From Candidatus Adamsella avium (GTDB lineage: Bacteria > Cyanobacteriota > Vampirovibrionia > Gastranaerophilales > CAJFVJ01): a stretch of 64,000 nucleotides of DNA. Under the pieces are notes generated by a model. That model was not told the DNA's origin, searched no databases, and saw nothing but the letters and a program-made list of their open reading frames with translations. The stretch lies in assembly GCA_904420445.1 (NCBI GenBank), contig CAJFVJ010000003.1:186001-250000 (forward strand), read 5' to 3'. How positions within the stretch are numbered: position 1 is the first letter of the stretch; the number at the start of each line of letters is the position of its first letter. Both the position numbers and the translations under genes were made by a program. This document shows, piece by piece, positions 4,067 through 63,490 of this stretch.

Positions 4067-4300
4067 ATGGCTAATAACGCAGTTAAAAACAGTATCAAAG
4101 AAGTAGCAATGAAGACTAAAGGCTGGAGCATCTACAAGCTTGCTCAGGAACTTGACCTTCCACAACAGACTGTATACAGTTGGGCGTGGAATAAAACCCA
4201 ACCGAATTACAAAAATCTTTTGAGAATATGCCATCTGCTAGAATGTTCAATGGAAGACATTTTTGAGGAAGCTATAAGAAAAAAGAAATTTCTGCATTAA
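4067..4300 (+). CDS. Small XRE-family HTH protein (77 aa)
   Basis: A single Cro/C1-type helix-turn-helix (WSIYKLAQELDLPQQTVYSW, then NLLRICHLLECSMEDIFEE) fills nearly the whole protein. This is the stand-alone DNA-binding type with no effector domain. An in-frame ATG at 3986 would add 27 residues with no ribosome site. The ATG at 4067 has GAGAGGA 7 nt upstream and gives the compact domain, so I use it. The gene ends with a 4-bp overlap with the convergent btuF gene. It may work with the tandem-HTH regulator across the structured gap, but that is only proximity. Confidence 0.75.
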   Translation: MANNAVKNSIKEVAMKTKGWSIYKLAQELDLPQQTVYSWAWNKTQPNYKNLLRICHLLECSMEDIFEEAIRKKKFLH

Positions 4301-5094
4301 AGTTTTGAAAAATATTGCACACTTTTATAAACTCTCGGTCCGGGACGGTTTATGACATCTCTTTCTTCTTTGGATAAGATTATTATCTTTGAATGAGGAA
4401 ACAGCTGCCTAAGACGTCTTGTATCGTCGAAAAAATTTACGACCACAATATCAGGAGAGGATTTCACTGCAAACTCTTCTGATATTGTAGGATAATACGC
4501 ATTCAAATTAGATGTAACGGAAAGTTGTCCTGATTTTTGTATTACATCAGTGATGAAGCTCTTCTTACCTATGGAAATCATTGGATTTACCTGAACGAGA
4601 TAGAGTATTTTCTTCGGAGAATTTGTTTTTATCTTCGATATTTGCTCTTTTATTGAAGATATAAGTTCTCCTGCTTGTTGCGTTTTATCTGTCAGTTTAC
4701 CTATGTATTCTATGTTTTTGTACACATCATTGATTGTATCAAATTTGAAGAATACGGGTTTTATGTCCGAATATCTAAAGCTTGCAAGGAGATATTGCGT
4801 TGAATCCATCGAAAAAATATAGGAGGGATTTAATCTTATTATTTTTTCTCTGTCGACAAAAAAGGTATTCCCTATCTTTGTTTTCAGGGAAGCTTCAATA
4901 GGATAATTACATTCTGTTGATACGCCTATCAAATTATCCTGAGCTTCGAGAGCATAAACTATCTCTGTTATCGACGGTGTTAGGCTGACATAAGTTGTCT
5001 TCTCCGCATAAGCATATGAGCAGAAAAAAAATACGCCGAAAAACAAACAGATTATTTTACTTATCAACCCGAACATAAAGCCTTTCACCATCAT
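4297..5094 (-). CDS. btuF: Periplasmic cobalamin-binding protein of ABC transporter (BtuF type)
   Basis: Type III substrate-binding protein (BtuF/FhuD/FecB fold, 265 aa). It has a signal peptide (ICLFFGVFFFCSYAYA, cut before EKTTY) and no lipobox. The mature start YVSLTPSITEIVYALE followed by LIGVSTECNYP is the BtuF-like opening. The fold ends in the expected C-terminal helices. The gene is last in a btuB-C-D-F operon and overlaps the ATPase gene by 38 bp, so translation is probably coupled. The start is uncertain: several ATGs (5094, 5076) lie before the signal peptide. The cobalamin assignment rests on the riboswitch at the head of the operon; by sequence alone a siderophore or heme binder is possible. 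Confidence 0.8.
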   Translation of the reverse strand: MMVKGFMFGLISKIICLFFGVFFFCSYAYAEKTTYVSLTPSITEIVYALEAQDNLIGVSTECNYPIEASLKTKIGNTFFVDREKIIRLNPSYIFSMDSTQYLLASFRYSDIKPVFFKFDTINDVYKNIEYIGKLTDKTQQAGELISSIKEQISKIKTNSPKKILYLVQVNPMISIGKKSFITDVIQKSGQLSVTSNLNAYYPTISEEFAVKSSPDIVVVNFFDDTRRLRQLFPHSKIIILSKEERDVINRPGPRVYKSVQYFSKL

Positions 5095-5788
5095 CTGTTA
5101 TTCTAAAGTTTATCCCGTAGATATTTTTTAGCATATCTTTGGTAAAGAATCCCTCTTTTGATTTGCAGAAAATTTTATGTTCTTTTGTTATCCCGATAAA
5201 ATAATCCCCGTAAGACTCTGCAAGATTCAAATCATGGAGGATTACAACAGCCGTAATTTCTTTTTGTTCGGTAAGTTTTTTTATCATATCAAGGATTTTT
5301 ATCTGGTTTATCAAATCCATATTGGAAGTAGGCTCATCAAGAAAAAAAACTTCTGCACCAGATAGCAGCCCTATCGCAATATTTGTTTTTTGCAGCTCGC
5401 CTGCGCTAAGTTTTTCCATAGACAAATTTTTGATATGGCTCAATTCAAGTTTTTCGATAATTTCATTAAGCAGTCTTTTCTCCTCCTTTGTCAAAAACCA
5501 TTTGACCATACTGTCTTTGAAAAAAACTGACGAAATATATTCCTCAACATCAAGCCCTTTTGGATAGCTGATTTTTTGAGGAAGATAAAATATTTTTTTT
5601 GATAACAGACCAAATTCTGAAACCTTATCAGGCTTTAGAAGCCCCGTAAGAATTTTCAGAACGGTAGTTTTTCCTGCACCGTTTGGACCGAGAATTACAT
5701 TAATCTTATGCTCACGCAGAGAAAGTTCGACATCTTCAAAAAAGATATTATCTTCAAATTTCAGATACAAATTTTTTATATCAATCAT
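5057..5788 (-). CDS. btuD: ABC transporter ATPase for cobalamin import (BtuD/FecE type)
   Basis: A 243-residue ABC ATPase with Walker A GPNGAGKT (about residues 36-43), an ABC signature LSAGELQKTNIAIGLL, Walker B VFFLDEPTSNMD and the switch histidine ILHDLNLAESYGD. The signature starts LSAGE rather than LSGGQ, a common variant. It starts 8 bp inside the permease gene and overlaps the binding-protein gene, in the usual permease-ATPase-binding protein order. It energises the BtuC-like permease in the inner membrane. Confidence 0.88.
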   Translation of the reverse strand: MIDIKNLYLKFEDNIFFEDVELSLREHKINVILGPNGAGKTTVLKILTGLLKPDKVSEFGLLSKKIFYLPQKISYPKGLDVEEYISSVFFKDSMVKWFLTKEEKRLLNEIIEKLELSHIKNLSMEKLSAGELQKTNIAIGLLSGAEVFFLDEPTSNMDLINQIKILDMIKKLTEQKEITAVVILHDLNLAESYGDYFIGITKEHKIFCKSKEGFFTKDMLKNIYGINFRITDDGERLYVRVDK

Positions 5789-6764
5789 TGAGAATATCTC
5801 CCTTCCTTGTCAAAAAGAAAACAAAAACAGGAGCGCCGATAAACGCCACAACAAGCCCGAGAGGTATCTGCATCGGATAAATCAATGTCCTTGATAAAAA
5901 ATCCGCAAATAAAATAAGCGATGCCCCTAAGAATATGTTCACAAAAAATAAATATCTGAAATCCTGTCCGACAATCATCTTCGAAATCAAGGGGGATATA
6001 ATCCCGATAAATCCCAAAATTCCCGCAGCTAAAACACTCAAGGAGGTCAAAAGCGCCGAGCAGACAATGAATAATATCGAATACATATTTTTATGTTTTA
6101 TTGATGAAAAAAACATCCCCTCATCAAGCCTCAAAAAATTCAATTTGGGAATAAGAAACGCCGAAAAAATTAATATTACAAGAAATATCAACAAAAGATA
6201 CCTGTCTGATACAAGGTTATTCTCCGTCAAATTGCCTGATAGGATATACAACATGGAATAAGACTTCTCTGAGTTCATAAGTATAATCATTGATATCAAC
6301 GCACTGACAAAGATGTTTATGGATAAGCCGACAAGAATTAACTTGGTAATCGAAAACTTGCGCAGCCCTGCAAAAGAGATAACAAGCAAAGAAGAAACCA
6401 TCGCCCCTAGAAAACCGAAGAAAGAATAATTTGCACTGTTAAAAAACAATACTGACAAAACAATCCCGAGCCCAGCCCCAGATGATATACCGGTAATATA
6501 AGGTTCTGCAAGAGGATTTTTTGATACGGTCTGCAAAAACAAACCTGCAAGAGCAAGGCACACTCCGGCAACTACAGCCTTAATAGCTCTCGGATAGCGT
6601 ATAAGCTCGAGAATAACAGCATCCTCAGAACTATCATTAAGATGAAAAGACTTCAAAAAAAGGTCAACGCCAAATCCGTCATGAGAGGCAAAAACTGAAA
6701 GATAAAAACATCCCAGAAACAAAAATAAAAGAATAACAATAGAAAGTATTTTATTTTTTCTCAT
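5781..6764 (-). CDS. btuC: FecCD/BtuC-family ABC permease
   Basis: Highly hydrophobic permease of the FecCD family with about ten transmembrane helices. It carries the conserved segments LRYPRAIKAVVAGVCLALAG and NPLAEPYITGISSGAGLG near the N terminus and GFIGIISPLISKMIVGQDFR in the second half. That last loop is the cytoplasmic coupling region that meets the ATPase. The start at 6764 has a GGGG site 6 nt upstream; an ATG at 6779 would add five residues. It lies 18 bp after the receptor gene, so receptor, permease, ATPase and binding protein form one transcription unit. Confidence 0.88.
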   Translation of the reverse strand: MRKNKILSIVILLFLFLGCFYLSVFASHDGFGVDLFLKSFHLNDSSEDAVILELIRYPRAIKAVVAGVCLALAGLFLQTVSKNPLAEPYITGISSGAGLGIVLSVLFFNSANYSFFGFLGAMVSSLLVISFAGLRKFSITKLILVGLSINIFVSALISMIILMNSEKSYSMLYILSGNLTENNLVSDRYLLLIFLVILIFSAFLIPKLNFLRLDEGMFFSSIKHKNMYSILFIVCSALLTSLSVLAAGILGFIGIISPLISKMIVGQDFRYLFFVNIFLGASLILFADFLSRTLIYPMQIPLGLVVAFIGAPVFVFFLTRKGDILND

Positions 6765-6796
6765 CCCTAACCCCGTCATCCAGCTATTCTATTATA

Positions 6797-8794
6797 TCAT
6801 AATGAATCTTTTCCCGTGTTCACTTTCATAAAAATTCCTGTCATAAAATGTATCCCAGGCTGGTAATAATTTTTGTACATTGATATTTTATGATCAAGCA
6901 GATTATACATCTGCGCTTTGAGATAAACATGGACGTTCTTTATGCTGAATAGCCTGATTATTGTTCCGAGAGAAACATTTGTATATCCTCCGACTCTGTC
7001 ATTGCCAGAATAAACTCTATCAGATGATGTTTCTACTCTTGCATAAGCGCTGAATCGTTCTTTGGGTGTGTAAACAACAGTGGCATTCAGCCTGTTTTTG
7101 GGAACACCCACCAGTTGATAACCCGTGTTTGAATCTTCAGAGTCTGTGTAGGTGTAGTTTAATATTGTTTTAAACTTCAAATTCGGCTGCCATTTTATAC
7201 TGGCTTCATATCCTCTGATTTTTGCCTCATCAACGTTCATATAAGTCCCTATCCATGTAACAGGGTCACTCTGCCAGCCGATATAATCATTATAAGAATT
7301 TGAGAAATATCCGAAATCAACACTCAATTTCTTGTTAAAAAATGTTTGCTCAACTCCGACATCCCAACCATTGAGTTTTTCAGCTTTCAAATTCGGATTC
7401 GGATCCATCATGCCTGCCAAACGTCCGAACATCTGATATAACGTAGGAGTATTGATGCTCTGTCCCCAGGAAGACCTGAATTTTGTATAATCCCCTTCCA
7501 TTTTGTATGAAGGTAGTATCAAAGCAGCAGACCCGTTCGGACTGACATAAGTGCCAAACTGCGAATGGTGCGTAAGCCTTGCGCCGCCTCGGAGAAATAA
7601 TCTGTCTTTGATATTGATTACATCATTGACATATACATCATTCTGAAGAGTATCACCGCTGAATCCGTTATATGACGGCCAGTAAGGGTCAAGAGAGTAA
7701 TCAGATACCGAGTTGAAAAAGTTCGACTCAAGATTGTACCCAAAAGACAGAGTGTTCCAATCTTTGTAGTGAAGATTGTGCTGAGATATAAAACTCAGTC
7801 TTGTACTTCTGAATTTATCGCTGCCTATCCCCGTATCATACCCGTCAGGTCTTTGATAAAAGTTATTGACGGTACTGAACACCCCGAAACGTGTAGATGA
7901 ATCATACCAGTCATTTGGCTTATAGTTGAATACCGTTGTATTAAATACATCAACATTTCTGCTGTAATCATTCGGGTCCTGAAGAATATAATCTCCAAAA
8001 CCGTTAATTCCTACATTTTTTCTTGAATTTGAAAATCTCAAAATATCACGTATCTCAGCCTTACCTTCAAGAAGTCTTTTTCCTACGTTAGCTGTAACAC
8101 TCAAAGAGTTATAATCATCGTTTTTTATTTTCTCTCCTTCATTAATTCTGAGTCCTCCGTCAGTCTTTAGCCAGTTTACACCGAGATAAAAGTCCTTGTC
8201 CTCATCTCCTCCCATTACAGCAAAACGTTCTTTGAAAGTTCCGAGATTGCCCATGCCTGATTCTATTTCAATTGAAGGTTTTCCATACCCTCTTCTTGTA
8301 CTCATGCTGACCAATCCGCCAGAGGCATTCACCCCTCCGATATTCCCCTGAGGTCCTTTGATTACCTCAATGCGTTCTATATCATCGCTAAGATAGTTGT
8401 TGAGATAAAATTTATTATCAACCGGACTGTCAGCTCTGATTCCGTCAATTGTCACCCTGACTCTGTCTGTTCCTCTGATACGAAAAGAAGTAATATCACC
8501 TGTTGACCCTGATGTTTGTATAGTTACACTGCCAAGCTGATTAAGTATTTCAGTGAGCATAGGAGAACCCTGCTCTTTTATATCTTCGAGTGTAACAACA
8601 TCGATGTTTGCACTTGCACTTTCTTTTGATTCAACGATATTATCAAGAGAATAAATTTGCTTTTCGCCGACCTGCCCGAAAAGCCTTGTTGTTTCTTCCT
8701 CACTTTTCTTGTTCTCTAAATCTTCAACAGCTGAAGCAATTTGAGATAGTGCACATACCAAGAACAGGGAAGAAAGAAATAATTTTTTAATCAT
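6797..8794 (-). CDS. btuB: TonB-dependent outer-membrane cobalamin receptor (BtuB-like)
   Basis: A roughly 665-residue TonB-dependent receptor. It starts with a signal peptide (KKLFLSSLFLVCALSQIASA). The plug domain follows, with ITSFRIRGTDRVRVTIDGIR, IERIEVIKGPQGNIGG and a GGLVSMSTRRG finish. The rest is a beta-barrel rich in alternating aromatic strands. It lacks the usual C-terminal aromatic end residue: about eight polar residues (NTGKDSL) follow the last strand. A longer frame begins with GTG at 8872, but that stretch is the riboswitch, so I take ATG 8794 (or 8797) with GAGG upstream. It imports corrinoid across the outer membrane using TonB energy; no tonB/exbBD is in the window. Its presence is good evidence for a diderm cell. 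Confidence 0.88.
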   Translation of the reverse strand: MIKKLFLSSLFLVCALSQIASAVEDLENKKSEEETTRLFGQVGEKQIYSLDNIVESKESASANIDVVTLEDIKEQGSPMLTEILNQLGSVTIQTSGSTGDITSFRIRGTDRVRVTIDGIRADSPVDNKFYLNNYLSDDIERIEVIKGPQGNIGGVNASGGLVSMSTRRGYGKPSIEIESGMGNLGTFKERFAVMGGDEDKDFYLGVNWLKTDGGLRINEGEKIKNDDYNSLSVTANVGKRLLEGKAEIRDILRFSNSRKNVGINGFGDYILQDPNDYSRNVDVFNTTVFNYKPNDWYDSSTRFGVFSTVNNFYQRPDGYDTGIGSDKFRSTRLSFISQHNLHYKDWNTLSFGYNLESNFFNSVSDYSLDPYWPSYNGFSGDTLQNDVYVNDVINIKDRLFLRGGARLTHHSQFGTYVSPNGSAALILPSYKMEGDYTKFRSSWGQSINTPTLYQMFGRLAGMMDPNPNLKAEKLNGWDVGVEQTFFNKKLSVDFGYFSNSYNDYIGWQSDPVTWIGTYMNVDEAKIRGYEASIKWQPNLKFKTILNYTYTDSEDSNTGYQLVGVPKNRLNATVVYTPKERFSAYARVETSSDRVYSGNDRVGGYTNVSLGTIIRLFSIKNVHVYLKAQMYNLLDHKISMYKNYYQPGIHFMTGIFMKVNTGKDSL

Positions 8795-8802
8795 CATAAA
8801 CC

Positions 8803-8893
8803 TCGTGCTCGCGAAATATTCCAACGGTAAGTGTTCTGACTTTACAGCTGCGGCACAGTTCCTGAATTTCACAGGATTTCCTTACCATATGTA
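8803..8893 (-). promoter_or_regulatory. Cobalamin riboswitch upstream of btuB operon
   Basis: On the minus strand the leader reads AGGAAATCCTGTGAAATTCA, then GGAACTGTGCCGCAGCTGTA, then AGTCAGAACACTTACC. This shows the P4 hairpin TCCTG-TGAAAT-TCAGGA, the G-C-rich central motif (GTGCCGCAGCTGT, consensus GGTCCCGCCACTGT) and a degenerate B12 box (12 of 16 consensus positions by my alignment). GTAAG/CTTAC at the two ends can pair to close the element. It ends within 10 nt of the btuB ribosome site, suggesting translational control: bound cobalamin would shut off uptake. Confidence 0.88.
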
Positions 8894-8949
8894 TGATGAT
8901 ATCATATGAATAATATTTTGTATAAAAGTTTACATTTAATTATAAATTT

Positions 8950-52707: not shown

Positions 52708-54306
52708 TTGGGGAACTACTTAAAACTACTGCTATATGATATAAAACGTATTTGGACTGGACTTGATTTTACTCAAAAAATCATAATCTCAGCTCTTATT
52801 GTTATAACTGTTTTTGCAGGCGCTTACTTCGCCGGCAAAGCAACAGAACCGAACTGGTCTGTGCTATACAGCGATTTGAACGAACCTGATGTTGTCGCTA
52901 TTGTCGAAAACCTCAAAAAAGGCGGTTATCCATACAAACTCAGCGATGATAAAAAAGCAATCTTTGTCCCTGCCTCTGTCAAAGAAGACCTTAGACTGAT
53001 GATTGCCGAAAACGATATCATTCAGGACAGCAACCCCGGCTTTGAACTTCTAGATAAAATGAACTTCGGAGCAACTGATTTCCACAACAAAATGACACGT
53101 CAAAGAATATTTCAGGGTGAACTTACAAGAACAATAGAAAGAATCAGCGGAATAAGAAAAGCCCGTGTCCAAATAGCTGAACCTGAACGCTCAGTGTTCG
53201 AAGACAACGATGAATCTCCATCAGCCTCTGTAATGCTTGTTCTCGAACCGGGTTATAGATTGAAAACACCTCAGGTTACAGCAATTAAAAACCTCGTAGC
53301 ATACTCTGTTCCGAGATTGAAACCTGAAAAAGTATTCATAACCGACCAGAACGGAAACAACCTCTCAGAAGACTTGAGCAAAAACTCAACAGACATCGAA
53401 AGTTATAAAACAAACTACGAAGAAAAAACAGCAAAGAAAATTACGGAAGTCCTCGAACAAATAGTAGGCAGAGGAAACGTAAACGTACAGGTTTCTGCTG
53501 AAATGAACTTCGACTCTGCAAGAGCAACCATCGAAACATACAAACCAATAAACGAAGATGGAGCGGGAGTTCTTACTTCTTCTCAAACAGAGCAGGAAAT
53601 CTATGAAAACGGCGCAAACAGAGTTATCGTCAAAAAAGAAAATGAAAACGGCGAAGAAGAAGTCGTAGAAGATGAAACAACAAAAGACGAAAATAAGAAA
53701 ACAAAACGTCTTAACTACCAGAAGACAAAAGCCTATAACAACTACAACGTCTCAAAAGAAATAAGACAGGTCGTCTATGCCCCTGGAGAAGTAAAAAGAC
53801 TTACTGTAGGTATCGCATTGAATAAAGTTCTTACAAGCACAGAAAAAGAAGAACTCACAAACCTTATCGCATCATCAGGCGGTGTAAACTTCGAAAGAGG
53901 TGACGTCATCAACATAACAAGCATGCAGTTCGCTCAAACAGATGCTGAAAATCAGGCAAAATTGCTCGAAGAAGTTCAAAAACAATCAATGACGGATATG
54001 ATTGTCGGCAAACTCGCTCCGATGGCAGTAATCCTCATCCTCGGAATAACAGCTCTCGTTATCATCAACAACATGATTAAAAAGCCGCTCGAAGGATACG
54101 AAGTTACTGCAGGCTCTTCTTCAAAATCCTTCCCTGAAATTGGAGCTGATGAGGATGCAGCCGGTCTGCTTGATATAGAAATGCCTCCGTTGATTGAAAC
54201 AAAACTCGATCCTCAGCTTGAAAAAATGAAAACGGAACTGAATGATATGATTCTTTCTGATCCTGCTGACGCTGCAAGACTTATATTAACCTTCATCAAA
54301 GAATAA
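52708..54306 (+). CDS. fliF: Flagellar MS-ring protein FliF
   Basis: A 532-residue MS-ring protein with two membrane spans (about residues 26-46, and ILILGITALVIINNMI near 445). The ring-building region has EPNWSVLYSDLNEPDVVAIV, GFELLDKMNFGATDFHNKM and LARTIE-like ELTRTIERISGIRKARVQIA. The C-terminal FliG-binding tail ends MILSDPADAARLILTFIKE. It begins with TTG at 52708; no ATG or GTG lies nearby and AGAGGT is correctly spaced, so a TTG start is credible. Confidence 0.95.
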   Translation: MGNYLKLLLYDIKRIWTGLDFTQKIIISALIVITVFAGAYFAGKATEPNWSVLYSDLNEPDVVAIVENLKKGGYPYKLSDDKKAIFVPASVKEDLRLMIAENDIIQDSNPGFELLDKMNFGATDFHNKMTRQRIFQGELTRTIERISGIRKARVQIAEPERSVFEDNDESPSASVMLVLEPGYRLKTPQVTAIKNLVAYSVPRLKPEKVFITDQNGNNLSEDLSKNSTDIESYKTNYEEKTAKKITEVLEQIVGRGNVNVQVSAEMNFDSARATIETYKPINEDGAGVLTSSQTEQEIYENGANRVIVKKENENGEEEVVEDETTKDENKKTKRLNYQKTKAYNNYNVSKEIRQVVYAPGEVKRLTVGIALNKVLTSTEKEELTNLIASSGGVNFERGDVINITSMQFAQTDAENQAKLLEEVQKQSMTDMIVGKLAPMAVILILGITALVIINNMIKKPLEGYEVTAGSSSKSFPEIGADEDAAGLLDIEMPPLIETKLDPQLEKMKTELNDMILSDPADAARLILTFIKE

Positions 54307-54324
54307 TAAGGAAATAAAACCAAA

Positions 54325-55356
54325 ATGGCTGCTATAAAACAACTTAACTTATCTAATATGAACGCAACCCAAAAGGTCGCTGCACTCTTAATCGTCCTTG
54401 GTCCAAAAGCCGCAACGGAAATTCTGAAAAATATTCCTGATGAAGACTTGATTGAACAAATTACTCTTGATATCGCAAATCTGAATAAAGTTCCTATGGA
54501 AACCCTAGACCAGATACTCGAAGAGTTTTATTCTATCTTTCAGGCAAGCGGATTTATCTCTAGAGGCGGTATTGATTATGCCAAAATCCTCCTCGAAGAA
54601 GCCTATGGACCTGATAAAGCAAGCAATATTCTGGATAAACTGGTAACAATCCTCAACAGCACTCCGTTTCAGTTCTTTAACGACGCCGATGCCCAGCAGC
54701 TTGCAACATCATTCCAGAACGAAAACCCTCAGCTTATTGCGCTGATTCTCGCTTATCTTAAACCTGAAAAATCAGCAGCCGTCCTAAACTTCTTACCGCC
54801 GGAGGTACAAACAGCCGTTGCTTTCAAAATTGCAGAGATGGAATCAACAAACCCTGAGATTATTGCTGATATAGAAAAAATCGTCGAAAATAAATTCTCA
54901 TCAGTCGTTATTCAGGACTTCTCAAAAGCAGGCGGCGTAGAATCTCTTGCAACTATCCTTAACCGTGTAGACCGCGCTACAGAAAAGAAAATTATGGAAT
55001 CTATCGAAGCAAGAGACAAAGACCTTGTAGAACAAATCAAAGACCTGATGTTCGTATTCGAAGATATCGTAAAACTCGAAGATAGAGCTATTCAGCGTAT
55101 ACTTAGAGAAGTCGATAATAAAGACCTGGCTATGAGCTTGAAAGGCTCTAATCAGGAAGTTAAAGATAAAATCTTCAAAAATATGTCAGAAAGAGCAAGA
55201 ACAATGCTTACTGATGATATGGAATATATGGGACCGGTTCGTGCAAAAGACGTTCAGGAATGTCAATCAAAAATTGTCGGCATAATAAGAATGCTCGAAT
55301 CCTCAGGAGAAATCGTTGTTCTCAGATCCGGCGTGGAGGATGAATATATTGAGTAG
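54325..55356 (+). CDS. fliG: Flagellar motor switch protein FliG
   Basis: A 343-residue switch protein. The FliF-binding N domain has QKVAALLIVLGPKAATEILK. The middle EHPQ-type motif region appears as ENPQLIALILAYLKPEKSAA (the family motif being EHPQTIA). The C-terminal charged helix DMEYMGPVRAKDVQECQSKI carries the torque residues. It lies 18 bp after fliF. Confidence 0.96.
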   Translation: MAAIKQLNLSNMNATQKVAALLIVLGPKAATEILKNIPDEDLIEQITLDIANLNKVPMETLDQILEEFYSIFQASGFISRGGIDYAKILLEEAYGPDKASNILDKLVTILNSTPFQFFNDADAQQLATSFQNENPQLIALILAYLKPEKSAAVLNFLPPEVQTAVAFKIAEMESTNPEIIADIEKIVENKFSSVVIQDFSKAGGVESLATILNRVDRATEKKIMESIEARDKDLVEQIKDLMFVFEDIVKLEDRAIQRILREVDNKDLAMSLKGSNQEVKDKIFKNMSERARTMLTDDMEYMGPVRAKDVQECQSKIVGIIRMLESSGEIVVLRSGVEDEYIE

Positions 55357-56119
55357 AATCAAAAGTTCTGATATAAAATTAGGAGACTCTTTTGTCTTCG
55401 GAAAACAAGAAGAAAAAATAGAAAAAATTGATATAACCGATAAAAACTTCCTCTCCTCGCTTTCTGATGAGATGCAGGCTGGCATCCAGAAAATTCTTGA
55501 TAACGCAAGCAAAGAAGCTTCTCAAATCATAGAAAATGCGAAAATAGAAGCAGAAAAGCTGAAACAAACAGCCTATGTCGAAGCCTCTGAAAAAGGATAC
55601 AACGAAGGCTTCGATAGAGGAGAGAAAGACGGACTCAATAAGATAAACTCTGAGCTTACTCAAAAAATACAGCATTTTGAAGAATTTATCGAACTGGTCA
55701 TGAAATCAAAAAATAATATTTATAAAGAAGCGCAGGAAGAACTTCTTGAGTTCGTTGTCACAATTGCAGAAAAACTCACCTGCGATAAACTGAAAGAAAA
55801 CAAAAACCTGCTCCTGAACCTCATCACAGAAGCGAGCAGCGAGCTTAAAGAAAAAGAAAACCTCACCATAACAGTCCATCCTTCAATGGCAAGAAATCTC
55901 TACTCAATTACCGATGAACTCAAAAAAAGAATTCTCAGCCTGAAAAATATAAAAATTCTTGAGGATAAAATGCTCGCAGAAGACGGACTGATAATCGAAA
56001 CAGAAGAATCAAGAATAGATGCAAGCTTCAGAACAAGAGTGGAGGAAATCCTTAAAGCGCTGAAAAAAGAAGCTCAAACAACAAGAATTATCCCCGATAA
56101 TCTGGAAATACTTGAATAA
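55340..56119 (+). CDS. fliH: Flagellar export ATPase regulator FliH
   Basis: A FliH-like stator protein of about 259 residues. The N-terminal part is disordered; a coiled coil (ASKEASQIIENAKIEAEKLK) contains the AxxxG-like repeat region EKGYNEGFDRGEKDGLNK. The C-terminal domain (EELLEFVVTIAEKLTCDKL, ending RIDASFRTRVEEILKAL) binds FliI. It overlaps fliG by 17 bp. The start is ambiguous: ATG 55340 directly abuts GGAGG, whereas TTG 55349 is ideally spaced from it. Confidence 0.87.
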   Translation: MNILSRIKSSDIKLGDSFVFGKQEEKIEKIDITDKNFLSSLSDEMQAGIQKILDNASKEASQIIENAKIEAEKLKQTAYVEASEKGYNEGFDRGEKDGLNKINSELTQKIQHFEEFIELVMKSKNNIYKEAQEELLEFVVTIAEKLTCDKLKENKNLLLNLITEASSELKEKENLTITVHPSMARNLYSITDELKKRILSLKNIKILEDKMLAEDGLIIETEESRIDASFRTRVEEILKALKKEAQTTRIIPDNLEILE

Positions 56120-56120
56120 A

Positions 56121-57443
56121 ATGACAACTCTCTGCAACCTCGACAAATTCATAAATACAGTCAAAAATCTTCCCTCAGGAGAAAAAGTAGGAAAGGTTCT
56201 CCGCATAATCGGTCTTGTTATCGAAGCTGACGGCCCTGAGGCAAGTATCGGTGATTTGTGCTATATCTTCAACTCAATGAACGACAAACCTGTTTTTGCA
56301 GAAGTTGTAGGATTTCAGGAAAAGAAAATTCTTCTTATGCCTCTTGGCAGTATGGAAGGACTGAAACCCGGCGCAATCGTCACCAATACAAAAGAATCAA
56401 TGAAAATCAAAGTCGGTGATATGCTCCTTGGCAGAGTTCTTGACGGTCTTGGAGAACCGATTGACTCAAAAGGAGAGATAAAATCAAATATTTACTACAG
56501 CACATCTCAAAAAATATCAAACCCTCTGGTCAGAAAACCTATAGATGAAGTCATAACTCTTGGCATCAGGTCGGTTGATGCGTTTTCTACTGTTGGAAAA
56601 GGGCAAAGAATGGGTATATTTGCAGGCAGCGGAGTCGGGAAAAGCACCACAATGGCAATGATGGCACGCAACACCGATGCAGATGTAAATGTCATCGCCC
56701 TAATCGGAGAAAGAGGACGTGAAGTCAGGGAGTTTATTGAAAAAACTCTCGGAGATGACGGTTTGAAACGCTCGGTTGTCGTTGTTGCAACATCTGAGCA
56801 GCCTTCTCTTGTAAAAATTAAAGCAGCCTTCGTTGCAACCACCATAGCAGAATATTTTAGAGATCAGGGAAAAGACGTTCTTTTTATGCTCGACTCAGTC
56901 ACCCGTATAGCCATGGCGCAGCGTGAAGTCGGTCTTGCTATAGGTGAACCTCCTGCAACAAGAGGCTACACTCCATCAGTATTTGCACTTATGCCCAAAA
57001 TTCTTGAAAGAACAGGAACATCTGATAAAGGAACCATAACAGGGCTATACACGGTTCTCGTCGAAGGTGATGATTTCAATGAGCCGATATCAGATACAGT
57101 CAGGAGCATACTTGATGGTCATATTATGCTATCAAGAGAGCTTGCGCATAAAAATCATTATCCTGCCGTTGATGTCTTGCAGAGTATCAGCCGTGTTATG
57201 TCAGAAATAGCGACACCTGAGCACAAAAAAGCAGCAGGCGACCTGAGAAATCTCCTCTCAGTGTACAACAAGAACGCTGACCTAATTAACATAGGAGCTT
57301 ATGTAAGAGGCAGCGACAAAAACGTCGATAGAGCACTCAGGCTTATGGATGACATAAATTCCTTCCTTCAACAAACAATTGATGATAAAACAGATTTTGA
57401 CTCTACAATAAAAAGACTTATGGAGATTTCAGCAAAACAATGA
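56121..57443 (+). CDS. fliI: Flagellum-specific export ATPase FliI
   Basis: A 440-residue ATPase. Walker A is AGSGVGKST in GQRMGIFAGSGVGKSTTMAM; IGERGREVREFIEKTLG and the Walker B stretch VLFMLDSVTRIAMAQREVGL follow, all F1-beta-like. It energises export with FliH. ATG 56121 lies 1 bp after the fliH stop; the upstream TTG 56112 is less likely. The gene's stop overlaps the start of the next gene (ATGA), which is not fliJ as expected but a corrinoid protein subunit. Confidence 0.95.
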   Translation: MTTLCNLDKFINTVKNLPSGEKVGKVLRIIGLVIEADGPEASIGDLCYIFNSMNDKPVFAEVVGFQEKKILLMPLGSMEGLKPGAIVTNTKESMKIKVGDMLLGRVLDGLGEPIDSKGEIKSNIYYSTSQKISNPLVRKPIDEVITLGIRSVDAFSTVGKGQRMGIFAGSGVGKSTTMAMMARNTDADVNVIALIGERGREVREFIEKTLGDDGLKRSVVVVATSEQPSLVKIKAAFVATTIAEYFRDQGKDVLFMLDSVTRIAMAQREVGLAIGEPPATRGYTPSVFALMPKILERTGTSDKGTITGLYTVLVEGDDFNEPISDTVRSILDGHIMLSRELAHKNHYPAVDVLQSISRVMSEIATPEHKKAAGDLRNLLSVYNKNADLINIGAYVRGSDKNVDRALRLMDDINSFLQQTIDDKTDFDSTIKRLMEISAKQ

Positions 57444-58318
57444 TACCGACATATGATACCCCGATAAAAGGATTAAATCTAAATAACAAACAACTTACCG
57501 AAGATGAGAAAACTCTCACATTCACCTCGCAAAAACAGAACTTTGTCCTTGCTCAGGAGATATATTCATCAAAAGACGGAGTTATCCCTGAAATTTTGAA
57601 AGATAAAATAAACACACCGCTAGCTGATGCAATTTCAGCCAAAAACAACAACGCAGATATGCTGAGCTACAAAATTAATGTTGAAAAGATTGAGAATAAA
57701 CAAAAATTTCTCAACGAGCAAACAGATATTATCTCAAAAATCATCGAAGAAACAATGCTTCCAATCATAATCTCAACTCTTTCAACAACAGAAAATAAAC
57801 TTGATATCATTCTGCATCTTGCAAAAACAGTACAATCACCGCTTATTTTCGCAGGAATAGAAGAAGCGAACTACAAGGAAATAATCCCGCACCTGATTGA
57901 TACAAAACATCTCATCATCGCAAGAACACCCATCGATATTAACCTGACAAAAGAACTCAATATCCTGATAAGAGATATGGGATTTTCTCTCGACAGATTG
58001 ATAATAGACCCGACAGCTGCAGCACTCGGATATGGTCTTGACTACGCTTACAGCATAATCGAACGCATCAAATTTGCAGCCCTGAACGGTGATACAACTC
58101 TCAATCTCCCGATAATCTCCATGTGCGCCGAAGAAGTTTATCGAGCAAAAGAAACAAAATCAGAAGACTTCCCTGAAAGCTGGGGTAATCTCAAGGACAG
58201 AGCATTGATATGGGAGCTTTCAACAGCATCGGCATTCATCTCTGCAGGCGCAAATATAGTTACTCTTGCAAATCCAAAGAGCATAGAATATTTCAACAAA
58301 GTTTTCAAGGAGCAATAA
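57440..58318 (+). CDS. acsD: Corrinoid iron-sulfur protein small subunit (AcsD/CdhD)
   Basis: A 292-residue TIM-barrel protein homologous to the small subunit of the Wood-Ljungdahl CoFeSP. The C-terminal 150 residues are highly recognisable: IIARTPIDINLTKELNILIR, LDRLIIDPTAAALGYGLDYA, YSIIERIKFAALNGD, AEEVYRAKETKSED, LIWELSTASAFISAGANI. From memory, each aligns to the Moorella small subunit. The N-terminal third is more divergent and slightly shorter (family about 310-320). The start overlaps the fliI stop by 4 bp, implying coupled translation in a flagellar operon. No CODH/ACS, methyltransferase AcsE or activator RACo gene is present in the window. Confidence 0.92.
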   Translation: MIPTYDTPIKGLNLNNKQLTEDEKTLTFTSQKQNFVLAQEIYSSKDGVIPEILKDKINTPLADAISAKNNNADMLSYKINVEKIENKQKFLNEQTDIISKIIEETMLPIIISTLSTTENKLDIILHLAKTVQSPLIFAGIEEANYKEIIPHLIDTKHLIIARTPIDINLTKELNILIRDMGFSLDRLIIDPTAAALGYGLDYAYSIIERIKFAALNGDTTLNLPIISMCAEEVYRAKETKSEDFPESWGNLKDRALIWELSTASAFISAGANIVTLANPKSIEYFNKVFKEQ

Positions 58319-58322
58319 GACC

Positions 58323-59642
58323 ATGGCATTAACAGCACTTCAAATATTCAAATACCTTCCAGGCGGGCTGAAACAAGAAAACGCAAACTGCAAAAAATGC
58401 TCATGCCCGACATGCATGGCTTTTGCAATGAAACTTGTTAAAAATCAGGTATCGCCTGATACCTGCCCTTATATTTCTGAAGAAGCAAAAGCACTGTTAT
58501 CAGAATCATTCAAAAAACCTCAGAAAGAAATTCAACTAGGAACAACAAACCCTCTAAAAATAGGCGGAGAAAATGTTCTGTTCAGACATGAGAAAAAGTT
58601 CATCAACCAGACAACAATAGCAATCAGAGTTTCATCATCAGAAAACTACAAAGAAAAACTCCAAAAAATCAAAAATTATTCAATTGAACGGGTAGGAGAA
58701 ACTTTTGGAATTTCTGCAATCAACATAGTCGAAGATGACCCTCAAAAATTCGAAGCCCTGATTGCAGAGGCAGAGTTCCTTGATTTTCCGATTATTGCAA
58801 CCACAACAACAGAAGATGGGACAAAAAAAGTTATCGAAAAACTGAAACATAAAAAATTCCTTCTAGACAATGAAAAAAACAAAGATAAAGACCAGCCTTT
58901 TGTTATAAACGGAAGTTCAACCTCCGATTTCGAGAAAAAAACAGAATCGCTTTTGAAAGAAGGCATTGAAAACATCGTCCTGAATATAGATGAGTCAAAT
59001 ATTCTAAAAGCGGCATCATTGCTGACAGAAATCAGATATGAAAGTATCCAGAACAAAAAAGAAACCCTCGGTTTTCCGACGATGATAAAATTATCTGAGA
59101 GTTCTGATAAATTCGAACTCTCAATCCTATCATCGGTATTCCTCTGCAAATATGCAAACATAATAGTCCTTCCTGATATTTCGCCTGAAGTACTCTCATC
59201 TCTTCTTACCCTGAGACAGAGCATATTCATTGACCCGCAGGTTCCTCTTCAGGTCAAACCGGGGCTGTACGAAATCGCAGACCCGAAAGAAGACTCTCTT
59301 GTTTTTGTCACAACAAATTTTGCCCTAACTTATTTTGCGATGAGAAATGAACTTGAAAGCTTAAATCTGCCTTCTTATCTGCTCATCACCGATGCTGACG
59401 GCATGAGCGTGCTCACAGCCTGGTCTGCCTCAAAACTTACGGGAGAAACTATCGCAAAAGCAGTGAACACAAGCGAGCTAGAGAAAAAAATAAACCATAA
59501 AAACATCATCATCCCGGGGTTCGTTGATGTCTTGAAAGAAGAAACAGAAGAAGAACTACCGGGGTGGAAAGTTATTGTCGGCTGCAATGAAGCATCTGAC
59601 CTGAGAAAAGTGCTGCCATCTCTGCAGCAGCAGGTAAAATAA
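58323..59642 (+). CDS. acsC: Corrinoid iron-sulfur protein large subunit (AcsC/CdhE)
   Basis: A 439-residue CoFeSP large subunit, full length for the family (about 445). It opens MALTALQIFKYLPGG. The N-terminal 4Fe-4S ligands are Cys23, Cys26, Cys31 and Cys48, with the same spacing (3, 5, 17) as in Moorella CoFeSP; Cys28 is extra. A TIM barrel follows (GGENVLFRHEKKFINQTTIA). The C-terminal corrinoid-binding domain is intact: FVTTNFALTYFAMRNELESL, LPSYLLITDADGMSVLTAWS, NIIIPGFVDVLKEE, LPGWKVIVGCNEA. It carries a methyl group on B12 and transfers it to an acceptor, which here is unknown. It starts 4 bp after acsD. Confidence 0.93.
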   Translation: MALTALQIFKYLPGGLKQENANCKKCSCPTCMAFAMKLVKNQVSPDTCPYISEEAKALLSESFKKPQKEIQLGTTNPLKIGGENVLFRHEKKFINQTTIAIRVSSSENYKEKLQKIKNYSIERVGETFGISAINIVEDDPQKFEALIAEAEFLDFPIIATTTTEDGTKKVIEKLKHKKFLLDNEKNKDKDQPFVINGSSTSDFEKKTESLLKEGIENIVLNIDESNILKAASLLTEIRYESIQNKKETLGFPTMIKLSESSDKFELSILSSVFLCKYANIIVLPDISPEVLSSLLTLRQSIFIDPQVPLQVKPGLYEIADPKEDSLVFVTTNFALTYFAMRNELESLNLPSYLLITDADGMSVLTAWSASKLTGETIAKAVNTSELEKKINHKNIIIPGFVDVLKEETEEELPGWKVIVGCNEASDLRKVLPSLQQQVK

Positions 59643-61584: not shown

Positions 61585-62655
61585 ATGAGAATAGGTATTC
61601 CACGAGCATTAAGTTTTTACAACTACTATCCCTTCTGGCATGGTTTTTTCACAAATTTGGGATTTGAAGTTGTTTTATCAGGAAAAACAACAAAAAGCAT
61701 AGTATCTTCTGGAAGCGCTCTTGTTGTTACTGAAACCTGTCTGCCTGTCAAAATCTACGTCGGGCATGTTCTTGATTTGCTCCAGAACAAAAAAGTAGAC
61801 GCAATCTACACTCCAAGCATTCAATCAATAGACTACAAAATCTACAACTGCTCAAAAATCAGAGGGTTGCCTGACCTTATCAGAAATGTCATCAAACAGG
61901 ATTTCCTGCTGATAGAACCGACTCTTGATAAATCAGATAAAGATAAAACCTTCTATGATTACCTCGAAGAATCAGTTAAAGACCTTGGAATTACCGATAA
62001 AGAAGCAATAAAAAGAGCGTCAAAAGTAGGCTGGAAAGCTCAGAATAACTTCAATATGATGATACACTCGGGCGTAAGCTTCGAAAAAGCTCTGAGATAC
62101 GCTATCGAAGGCAAAGTCGTTATCCTCAAAGAAGAAGAGGAATATCCGATAAACGTCGCTGTAATCTCACATGGTTACAATCTGCATGACGACCACTCAA
62201 GTATGAAAATTCTCTCAAAATTGAATAAACTTGGGGTAAAAACTTATACAGCTGACAGATTAACTCAAGAAGAGATGAAAGAAGGCTTCAGAAATCTCGA
62301 AACGGATATCTACTGGGCAAATGAATATGAAATGACCGGAGCAGCAGGCTACTACATGAAAGATGACCACATCGACGGCGTTATCACAGTAACAGCCTTT
62401 GGATGCGGTCCTGACTCAATTATGATTGAAAGAATGACCCGTTTTTCAAAAAAATTCGGCAAACCTCTTCTTAACCTGACAATCGACGAACACACGGGAG
62501 AAGCCGGCTTCATCACACGTCTTGAAGCATTTACCGATATGCTCTTCAGAAAGAAACGACTCAACCTCACACAGTCTTTTGACAAAGAATTCAAAGCAAA
62601 AGACGAAAAACCTGAAAAGAAAACAAACAAATATAAAATAGCAATAAATATCTAA
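61585..62655 (+). CDS. Acyl-CoA dehydratase activase-related protein (DUF2229/COG3580-3581 type)
   Basis: A 356-residue protein opening MRIGIPRALSFYNYYPFWHG, the DUF2229 start, here as a free-standing protein without the BadF/HgdC ATPase domain. Conserved cysteines appear in VTETCLPVKIYVGHV, IYNCSKIRGLPDL and TAFGCGPDSIMIERM, and could hold an Fe-S cluster as in HgdB-like partners. The C-terminal NLTIDEHTGEAGFITRLEAF is a family signature. Related proteins activate or reduce cluster enzymes at low potential. A corrinoid iron-sulfur protein lies nearby, and such proteins need reductive activation, but the link is only positional. Own promoter and terminator. Confidence 0.8.
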   Translation: MRIGIPRALSFYNYYPFWHGFFTNLGFEVVLSGKTTKSIVSSGSALVVTETCLPVKIYVGHVLDLLQNKKVDAIYTPSIQSIDYKIYNCSKIRGLPDLIRNVIKQDFLLIEPTLDKSDKDKTFYDYLEESVKDLGITDKEAIKRASKVGWKAQNNFNMMIHSGVSFEKALRYAIEGKVVILKEEEEYPINVAVISHGYNLHDDHSSMKILSKLNKLGVKTYTADRLTQEEMKEGFRNLETDIYWANEYEMTGAAGYYMKDDHIDGVITVTAFGCGPDSIMIERMTRFSKKFGKPLLNLTIDEHTGEAGFITRLEAFTDMLFRKKRLNLTQSFDKEFKAKDEKPEKKTNKYKIAINI

Positions 62656-62692: not shown

Positions 62693-63490
62693 CTAAGACT
62701 TTCTTCTCAAATCATCCAGATATTTTTTTACATCCTGAGATAAATTCACATTCTGCACAGTGAAATTATAAAGATTCATATTCGCAAGCATATCCTGCTC
62801 CTGCAGCAAATCTCTTGATGGACGCTGTGCCTGAACATCAGATTTTACATGTTCAAATTCTGATGTTGACCTCGATAAAAGATTTCTAACTATTTGATCA
62901 ACACTCGTAACTCCAGGCATGGAATACAATGCAGCCATCTCAGATACAGGCATCCCGTAAGGAAGCGAGTACATCCACTTGAGCGTATCTTTATCCCTCT
63001 GAGTCACGTTATAAACCCCGAACTGATGAGGAACATACATTATATCATTCTTATATGGACTATGCTGCAACCCTAAAGCATGACCTATCTCATGGACAAT
63101 CGTGTGCATAACTTCATTTTGGTCTTGGTATTTTGCATGCAAAATACCATCGGATAAACCAATCTCTACCTCAGCAGAATAAAGCCTGTTTTGCTTATCA
63201 TAGTTGAAATAACACATCCCTAAAGCTTTCCTGTCAACTCTCTTCCAGCTTATATTAATCTGCGACTCATGCAGCGTGCTGACTATTCTGAAAGAAACTT
63301 TTCCCCCTGTCGCCTTACTCCACAAATCAAAAGCATCCATAACCATCTGTTTATAAGTATAAACATCGCTTCCCTTAGCTTTATACCACTGAAAAGGCGC
63401 AATATATACAGTCAGAGGCATACAACTATCAGGCCAGCGCATGAGAGTATTATTTTTCAGGCAATAATCTAAATATGTAACATTTTCCAT
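62693..63490 (-). CDS. Matrixin-like zinc metalloprotease
   Basis: A 265-residue protein. The zinc site HTIVHEIGHALGLQH and the Met-turn NDIMYVPH are both present, placing it in the metzincin/matrixin group (Peptidase M10). The domain runs from about residue 18 (MRWPDSCMPLTVYIAPF) to 160. The C-terminal 100 residues are helical and of unknown role. There is no signal peptide, propeptide cysteine switch or membrane anchor that I can see, unusual for a secreted-type protease. Export by another route, or a cytoplasmic role, is possible. It is monocistronic and divergent to ybaB. Confidence 0.83.
   Translation of the reverse strand: MENVTYLDYCLKNNTLMRWPDSCMPLTVYIAPFQWYKAKGSDVYTYKQMVMDAFDLWSKATGGKVSFRIVSTLHESQINISWKRVDRKALGMCYFNYDKQNRLYSAEVEIGLSDGILHAKYQDQNEVMHTIVHEIGHALGLQHSPYKNDIMYVPHQFGVYNVTQRDKDTLKWMYSLPYGMPVSEMAALYSMPGVTSVDQIVRNLLSRSTSEFEHVKSDVQAQRPSRDLLQEQDMLANMNLYNFTVQNVNLSQDVKKYLDDLRRKS

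Follow-up and report, generated by a model that had tools for sequence, protein, structure and literature searches.

A corrinoid iron-sulfur protein kept without acetyl-CoA synthase in Gastranaerophilales and its probable role in methionine synthesis

Background

The corrinoid iron-sulfur protein (CoFeSP) is usually taken to mark the Wood-Ljungdahl pathway, and its described forms (structures 2h9a and 4djd) comprise two subunits, with 4Fe-4S cysteines, a C-terminal B12 domain and the methyltransferase AcsE as partner. MesB and MesC, core methionine synthases known from Wood-Ljungdahl organisms (Deobald 2020 PMC7005905; Price 2021 PMC7857596), consist of the MetE catalytic fold without the folate-binding half and carry an HxCx18D...C zinc pattern, and enzymes of this kind are predicted to draw their methyl groups from CoFeSP (PMC7857596). 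MetH passes the methyl group of methyl-tetrahydrofolate (methyl-THF) to cobalamin and on to zinc-bound homocysteine. The subject here is a pair of CoFeSP genes, acsD and acsC, in a stretch of 64,000 nucleotides (the window, C3:186001-250000) from Candidatus Adamsella avium, a member of the Candidatus Gastranaerophilales, the non-photosynthetic kin of the Cyanobacteria from gut and environment, whose assembly of 2.095 Mb in 3 contigs is 99% complete.

The evidence set out below makes it very likely that CoFeSP, AcsE and a Mes-like protein encoded elsewhere in this genome make methionine, as a methionine synthase spread over separate proteins. Presence and absence of the genes were scored over 114 Gastranaerophilales genomes, the window's own included, and the comparisons use labels for genus (g), family (f), genome (G) and stretch (L). 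These genomes are related and are not independent data points, and the Fisher p-values given below measure association, not the probability of a hypothesis.

A CoFeSP without acetyl-CoA synthase

The flagellar cluster of the window (fliF, fliG, fliH and fliI, 52708-57443) ends with the gene of the flagellar export ATPase, fliI (56112..57443, + strand; TIGR03497, 656.7 bits), and is followed on the same strand by acsD (57440..58318) and acsC (58323..59642), with a 4-base ATGA overlap between fliI and acsD and a 4-bp gap between acsD and acsC, just as originally predicted. AcsC, the large subunit, has 439 amino acids and combines a 4Fe-4S motif with a TIM barrel and a B12 domain; it reaches 384.2 bits against the NCBIfam equivalog for the gamma subunit (NF003195, cut-off 306) and matches CoFeSP structures over its full length (2h9a_A, E 3e-76). 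Its four cluster cysteines (C23, C26, C31 and C48), already singled out in the original prediction, are invariant in 32 relatives, among which a fifth, C28, varies; the C-terminal B12 part, which had been called intact, has a strongly conserved TNFALT...GMSVLTAW region. An identity with HgcA, the mercury methylation protein, was rejected (68.1 bits against a curated cut-off of 275). AcsD (292 amino acids) lies well above the cut-off of Pfam PF03599 (CdhD; 74.6 against 24.8 bits) and matches 4djd_D (E 2.3e-40), and it falls under all NCBIfam AcsD cut-offs; judged by these matches it is a recognisable but divergent CoFeSP small subunit, paired with the adjoining acsC.

Unlike the Wood-Ljungdahl CoFeSP, this pair lies outside any acs cluster, and the large subunit is shortened in many genomes of the gut family f2 (L024, L025, L027-L030, L054 and L055), with up to ~60 residues of the TIM-barrel region gone from the segment 137-218 (numbering of the window's protein), the cysteines and the B12 domain being retained. 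Nor is there an acetyl-CoA synthase (ACS) for it to serve: AcsB (PF03598) was found in none of the 114 genomes, by a search that was positive in two methanogen controls, and it was through AcsB that a full carbon monoxide dehydrogenase (CODH)/ACS was looked for, CODH not having been searched for. Most of the order keeps CoFeSP without ACS, and therefore matches to acsC and acsD alone can mislead metabolic inference.

Methionine synthases of the described kinds are scarce as well. The window's genome has neither PF01717, the MetE/Mes catalytic domain, nor the S-methyl_trans homocysteine domain of MetH (PF02574), and over the order these occur in 3 and 2 of the 114 genomes, respectively, both MetH genomes being without acsC. 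Thus MesB, which had been suggested as the methyl acceptor, was searched for along with MetE and MetH, and none was found.

The mes-cooC-folD-acsE cluster

AcsE had been called absent, which holds within the window, but the genome does encode a homologue at C3:805088-806002 (2e7f, E 9e-51). It is one of the two proteins found by a Pterin_bind search of the genome, the other being dihydropteroate synthase, and it scores 222.9 bits against NF005719, under the cut-off of 259. Its catalytic residues D72, N95, D160 and N199 are invariant in 30 sequences and correspond, as we take it, to D75, N96, D160 and N199 of the Moorella enzyme. MetF is encoded at C1:128305-129144.

The acsE gene is the last of a mes-cooC-folD-acsE cluster (C3:802411-806005; L058:6412-10006). 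The genome scan for Mes-like homologues took in the best 80 loci; mes, cooC and folD are clustered at most loci, with acsE joined to them in several families, and two stretches (L224 and L233) have mes-cooC-folD and acsDC no more than 7 kb apart. Genus g28 has metF adjoining acsE. A TPR gene behind the f2 acsE was considered as a partner and rejected, the similarity being one of repeat domains. In the window's genome genes for a CheY-like receiver and a flagellin lie directly downstream of acsE (L058 9999-11413).

Between mes and folD stands a gene for a CooC-family ATPase (L058 7497-8237). Its best PDB match is CooC, the nickel-insertion ATPase (3kje, E 4.7e-10), with which it shares a CxC motif that is invariant in 81 sequences. 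In contrast to CooC, it is fixed beside mes and folD with no ACS to mature, and its P-loop reads GKSGSGKTT instead of GKGGVGKTT. It is probably a maturation factor or serves metal delivery.

The first gene of the cluster (C3:802411-803496) encodes the Mes-like protein of 362 amino acids, for which no Pfam, NCBIfam or PDB-sequence match was found. An AlphaFold model built with 27 relatives (pLDDT 90.3) has as its top PDB fold matches MetE (4l6h, E 1e-8) and MesD (3rpd, E 8e-6), with TM 0.62/0.65. The MetE structures of Candida, Neurospora, Thermotoga and Streptococcus, together with MesD of Shewanella (3rpd), come first, and structures of UROD follow. Conserved in the family are GSLP (S14), DEP (D190), HCC (H231, C233), D252 and TPSCG (C329), and all six named residues are retained in essentially all intact copies. 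The zinc ligands of MesB are at 214/216/235/311 and those of MesC at 204/206/225/314 (PMC7857596); the first two intervals are the same in the series 231/233/252/329 of the Mes-like protein, which has the H-x-C-x18-D spacing. H231, C233, D252 and C329 are predicted zinc ligands, and S14 and D190 are predicted homocysteine-contacting positions.

With MesB and MesC the Mes-like protein thus shares the MetE catalytic fold, the missing folate-binding half, the zinc pattern and CoFeSP as predicted methyl donor. It differs from them in having no PF01717 or other family match and in the missing ACS, so that methyl-folate, via AcsE, would be the source of the methyl group. It represents a separate acceptor-enzyme family, unseen by the present libraries (Pfam, NCBIfam), and within the phylum it was found in the Gastranaerophilales alone, besides one weak fragment. 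Seven g29 and g30 genomes without CoFeSP (L280-L286) hold divergent Mes homologues of ~25-32% identity. All seven have other residues in place of both zinc cysteines, although the serine is retained in one and the histidine in one; these homologues possibly have a new function, and the loss of the cysteines in genomes lacking CoFeSP is an informative natural control.

Joint retention and loss over 114 genomes

The presence of acsC is matched closely by that of mes. Both acsC and a full-length mes occur in 81 genomes and neither in 31, with one genome for each of the discordant classes (p 1e-25; agreement in 112/114), the genome with mes and no acsC (G025) being 88% complete. For acsC and acsE the counts are 78 with both, 4 with acsC only, 1 with acsE only and 31 with neither, and for acsC and metF 75, 7, 6 and 26 in the same order. 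Joint losses are also seen within genera: acsC, mes, acsE and metF are all missing from G034 and G069 of g21 and from G016 of g14, a genus in which G019 has all four, and in three g3 genomes (G061, G065 and G082) acsC, acsE and metF are missing and mes is shortened.

A proposed methionine synthase in separate proteins

In the proposed route, MetF would produce methyl-THF, the AcsE-type methyltransferase would move its methyl group to the Co(I) of AcsC/AcsD, and the Mes-like zinc enzyme of MetE fold would pass the methyl group from methyl-Co(III) to homocysteine to give methionine. We infer these catalytic steps from homology; the direction of flow, homocysteine as the acceptor, a contact of the Mes-like protein with CoFeSP and what the ATPase does are likewise inferred. 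The methionine half of the earlier interpretation is strongly supported: AcsB, MetH and MetE are missing, an AcsE homologue and MetF are present, and a protein of MetE fold with the zinc and homocysteine residues co-occurs with CoFeSP. The chemistry would be that of MetH, from which the route differs in its separate proteins, in a homocysteine enzyme of MetE type rather than MetH type, and in having CoFeSP as its corrinoid protein.

Several observations weigh against this assignment. Comparisons of the Mes-like protein with methionine synthases at the level of sequence (phmmer, profile search and hhalign) were all negative, the profile comparison against MetE among them falling short of significance, and what informs on its identity is the fold search together with the pattern of residues; the equivalence of the zinc residues was judged by motif, spacing and fold rather than by superposition. 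In several f4 genomes no acsD adjoins acsC, and G109 has acsC without mes. Conversely, G057, G061, G065, G079 and G082 keep all the mes catalytic residues with no detectable CoFeSP, three of these copies being shortened; the absence of CoFeSP from these five genomes is read as a putative recent loss. Finally, four g20 genomes (G053, G056, G068 and G112; L244-L246 and L248) hold acsC and mes with neither acsE nor metF. As CoFeSP and the Mes-like synthase are kept there without AcsE and MetF, another methyl source is implied for g20, most of whose genomes have lost the two. With this provision for g20, it is likely that the CoFeSP of Gastranaerophilales, its role in acetyl-CoA synthesis gone, is charged by AcsE from methyl-folate and feeds an undescribed family of core methionine synthases.

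Whereas carrier and methyltransferase are known, the acceptor-enzyme family and the combination are new: in the open-access literature no report was found of CoFeSP without ACS combined with AcsE and a core synthase, or of CoFeSP, AcsE or a Mes-like enzyme in Gastranaerophilales. The missing methionine synthase of this gut lineage would be supplied by an enzyme that goes unrecognised by present family libraries, in a natural example of MetH chemistry divided among separate proteins. Because acetyl-CoA synthesis is absent here and brings no confusion, the prediction that CoFeSP is the donor of core methionine synthases (PMC7857596) becomes open to a clean test.

Alternative explanations

The same set of proteins could instead methylate another thiol acceptor, with methanethiol for instance as product, or demethylate a methyl donor towards THF. 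The MetE/UROD fold also covers methyl-cobamide:thiol methyltransferases, UROD structures come after those of MetE among the fold matches, and the likeness of the Mes-like protein to methionine synthases is undetectable by sequence. However, the top fold matches are all MetE or MesD, S14 and D190 fit homocysteine-contacting positions, and the window's genome is without any other known methionine synthase; another acceptor or the reverse direction is accordingly unlikely. Ordinary acetogenesis, with a CODH/ACS encoded outside the window, would account for the complete CoFeSP and for the AcsE homologue, both being parts of that pathway, but the absence of AcsB from a 99%-complete genome and from all 114 genomes scored rules out ACS-based acetogenesis, barring an unrecognisable AcsB, and we give this explanation next to no credence. 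Hardly any more can be given to a functionless vestige of an ancestral Wood-Ljungdahl pathway: the order-wide loss of AcsB and the shortened f2 large subunit would fit it, whereas the order shows no variation in the cysteines, the B12-domain residues or the catalytic residues of AcsE, the reading frames are unbroken, and retention or loss is shared by metF, acsE, acsC and mes, also within g3, g14 and g21.

It had also been proposed that CoFeSP works in methylation linked to the flagellum or to chemotaxis, a function of which the junction with fliI would be the reflection. The ATGA overlap is present in both g1 genomes, fliI and acsDC also adjoin in two f5 genera, and a flagellin gene follows closely on the acsE cluster of the window's genome. 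Nevertheless, acsC is not associated with canonical flagellar fliI (26 genomes with both, 56 with acsC only, 14 with fliI only and 18 with neither; p = 0.28), and in 22 of the 26 genomes with both genes the junction is missing or the genes are on separate contigs. In f2, acsDC is often found behind ftsH, with acsD overlapping the ftsH end comparably, and elsewhere its neighbours are DUF2229, MazG and glycosyltransferase genes. A flagellar function is highly improbable on these grounds, and the flagellar half of the earlier interpretation is not supported.

The junction with fliI

The fliI-acsDC junction, proposed as a point to check in related genomes, is not general: it is seen in two families only and in 4 of the 26 genomes, namely both g1 genomes and the two f5 genera, at distances of -4, -4, 71 and 392 bp. 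Nor does acsD stand in a fixed fliJ slot, since the gene behind fliI varies from genome to genome across the order. The place of acsDC at the end of the flagellar cluster appears incidental, and acsDC seems to shift from one operon to another. In g1, acsDC may well be co-transcribed with fliI; the claim that no promoter separates fliF from acsC cannot be upheld, because the promoter scan performed at chance level (9 matches against 8.2 +/- 3.2 in shuffles). What the flagellar operon contributes is transcription at most, in two families, and it has no functional part. A second flagellar-type export cluster lies at L243 230-10211 (G000:C1:30229-40210), with FlgE/F/G-like rod proteins, an SLT transglycosylase, FliE, FliF, FliH, FlhA and a FliI-like ATPase. 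Almost all genomes of the order have an ATPase of this type, even where canonical flagellar FliI is missing.

Corrinoid supply and other features of the window

A probable cobalamin uptake cluster, identified by Pfam matches, lies on the - strand at 4297..8872 and comprises genes for a TonB receptor (6797-8872), a FecCD permease (5781-6779), an ABC ATPase (5057-5788) and a periplasmic binding protein (4297-5094). At its head, where the receptor gene starts, is an AdoCbl-II cobalamin riboswitch (8821..8899, - strand; RF01689, 49.2 bits, gathering 36.5). This cluster would supply the corrinoid of CoFeSP by import. In the stretches scanned upstream of acsD, mes and metF, no S-adenosylmethionine or cobalamin riboswitch was found.

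Three genes downstream of acsC the window encodes a DUF2229/HGD-D-like protein (61585-62655), and two f4 genomes have three such genes convergent to acsC (L041 5031-8524; L042 6825-10283). Proteins of this kind are possible candidates for a low-potential electron donor that would reactivate Co(II). A general linkage of acsDC with DUF2229 was rejected, as it is confined to f1, two f4 genomes and, weakly, one f2 genome. Further downstream, a putative zinc metalloprotease with the motif HEIGHALGLQH in its translation is encoded at 62693-63490 on the - strand.

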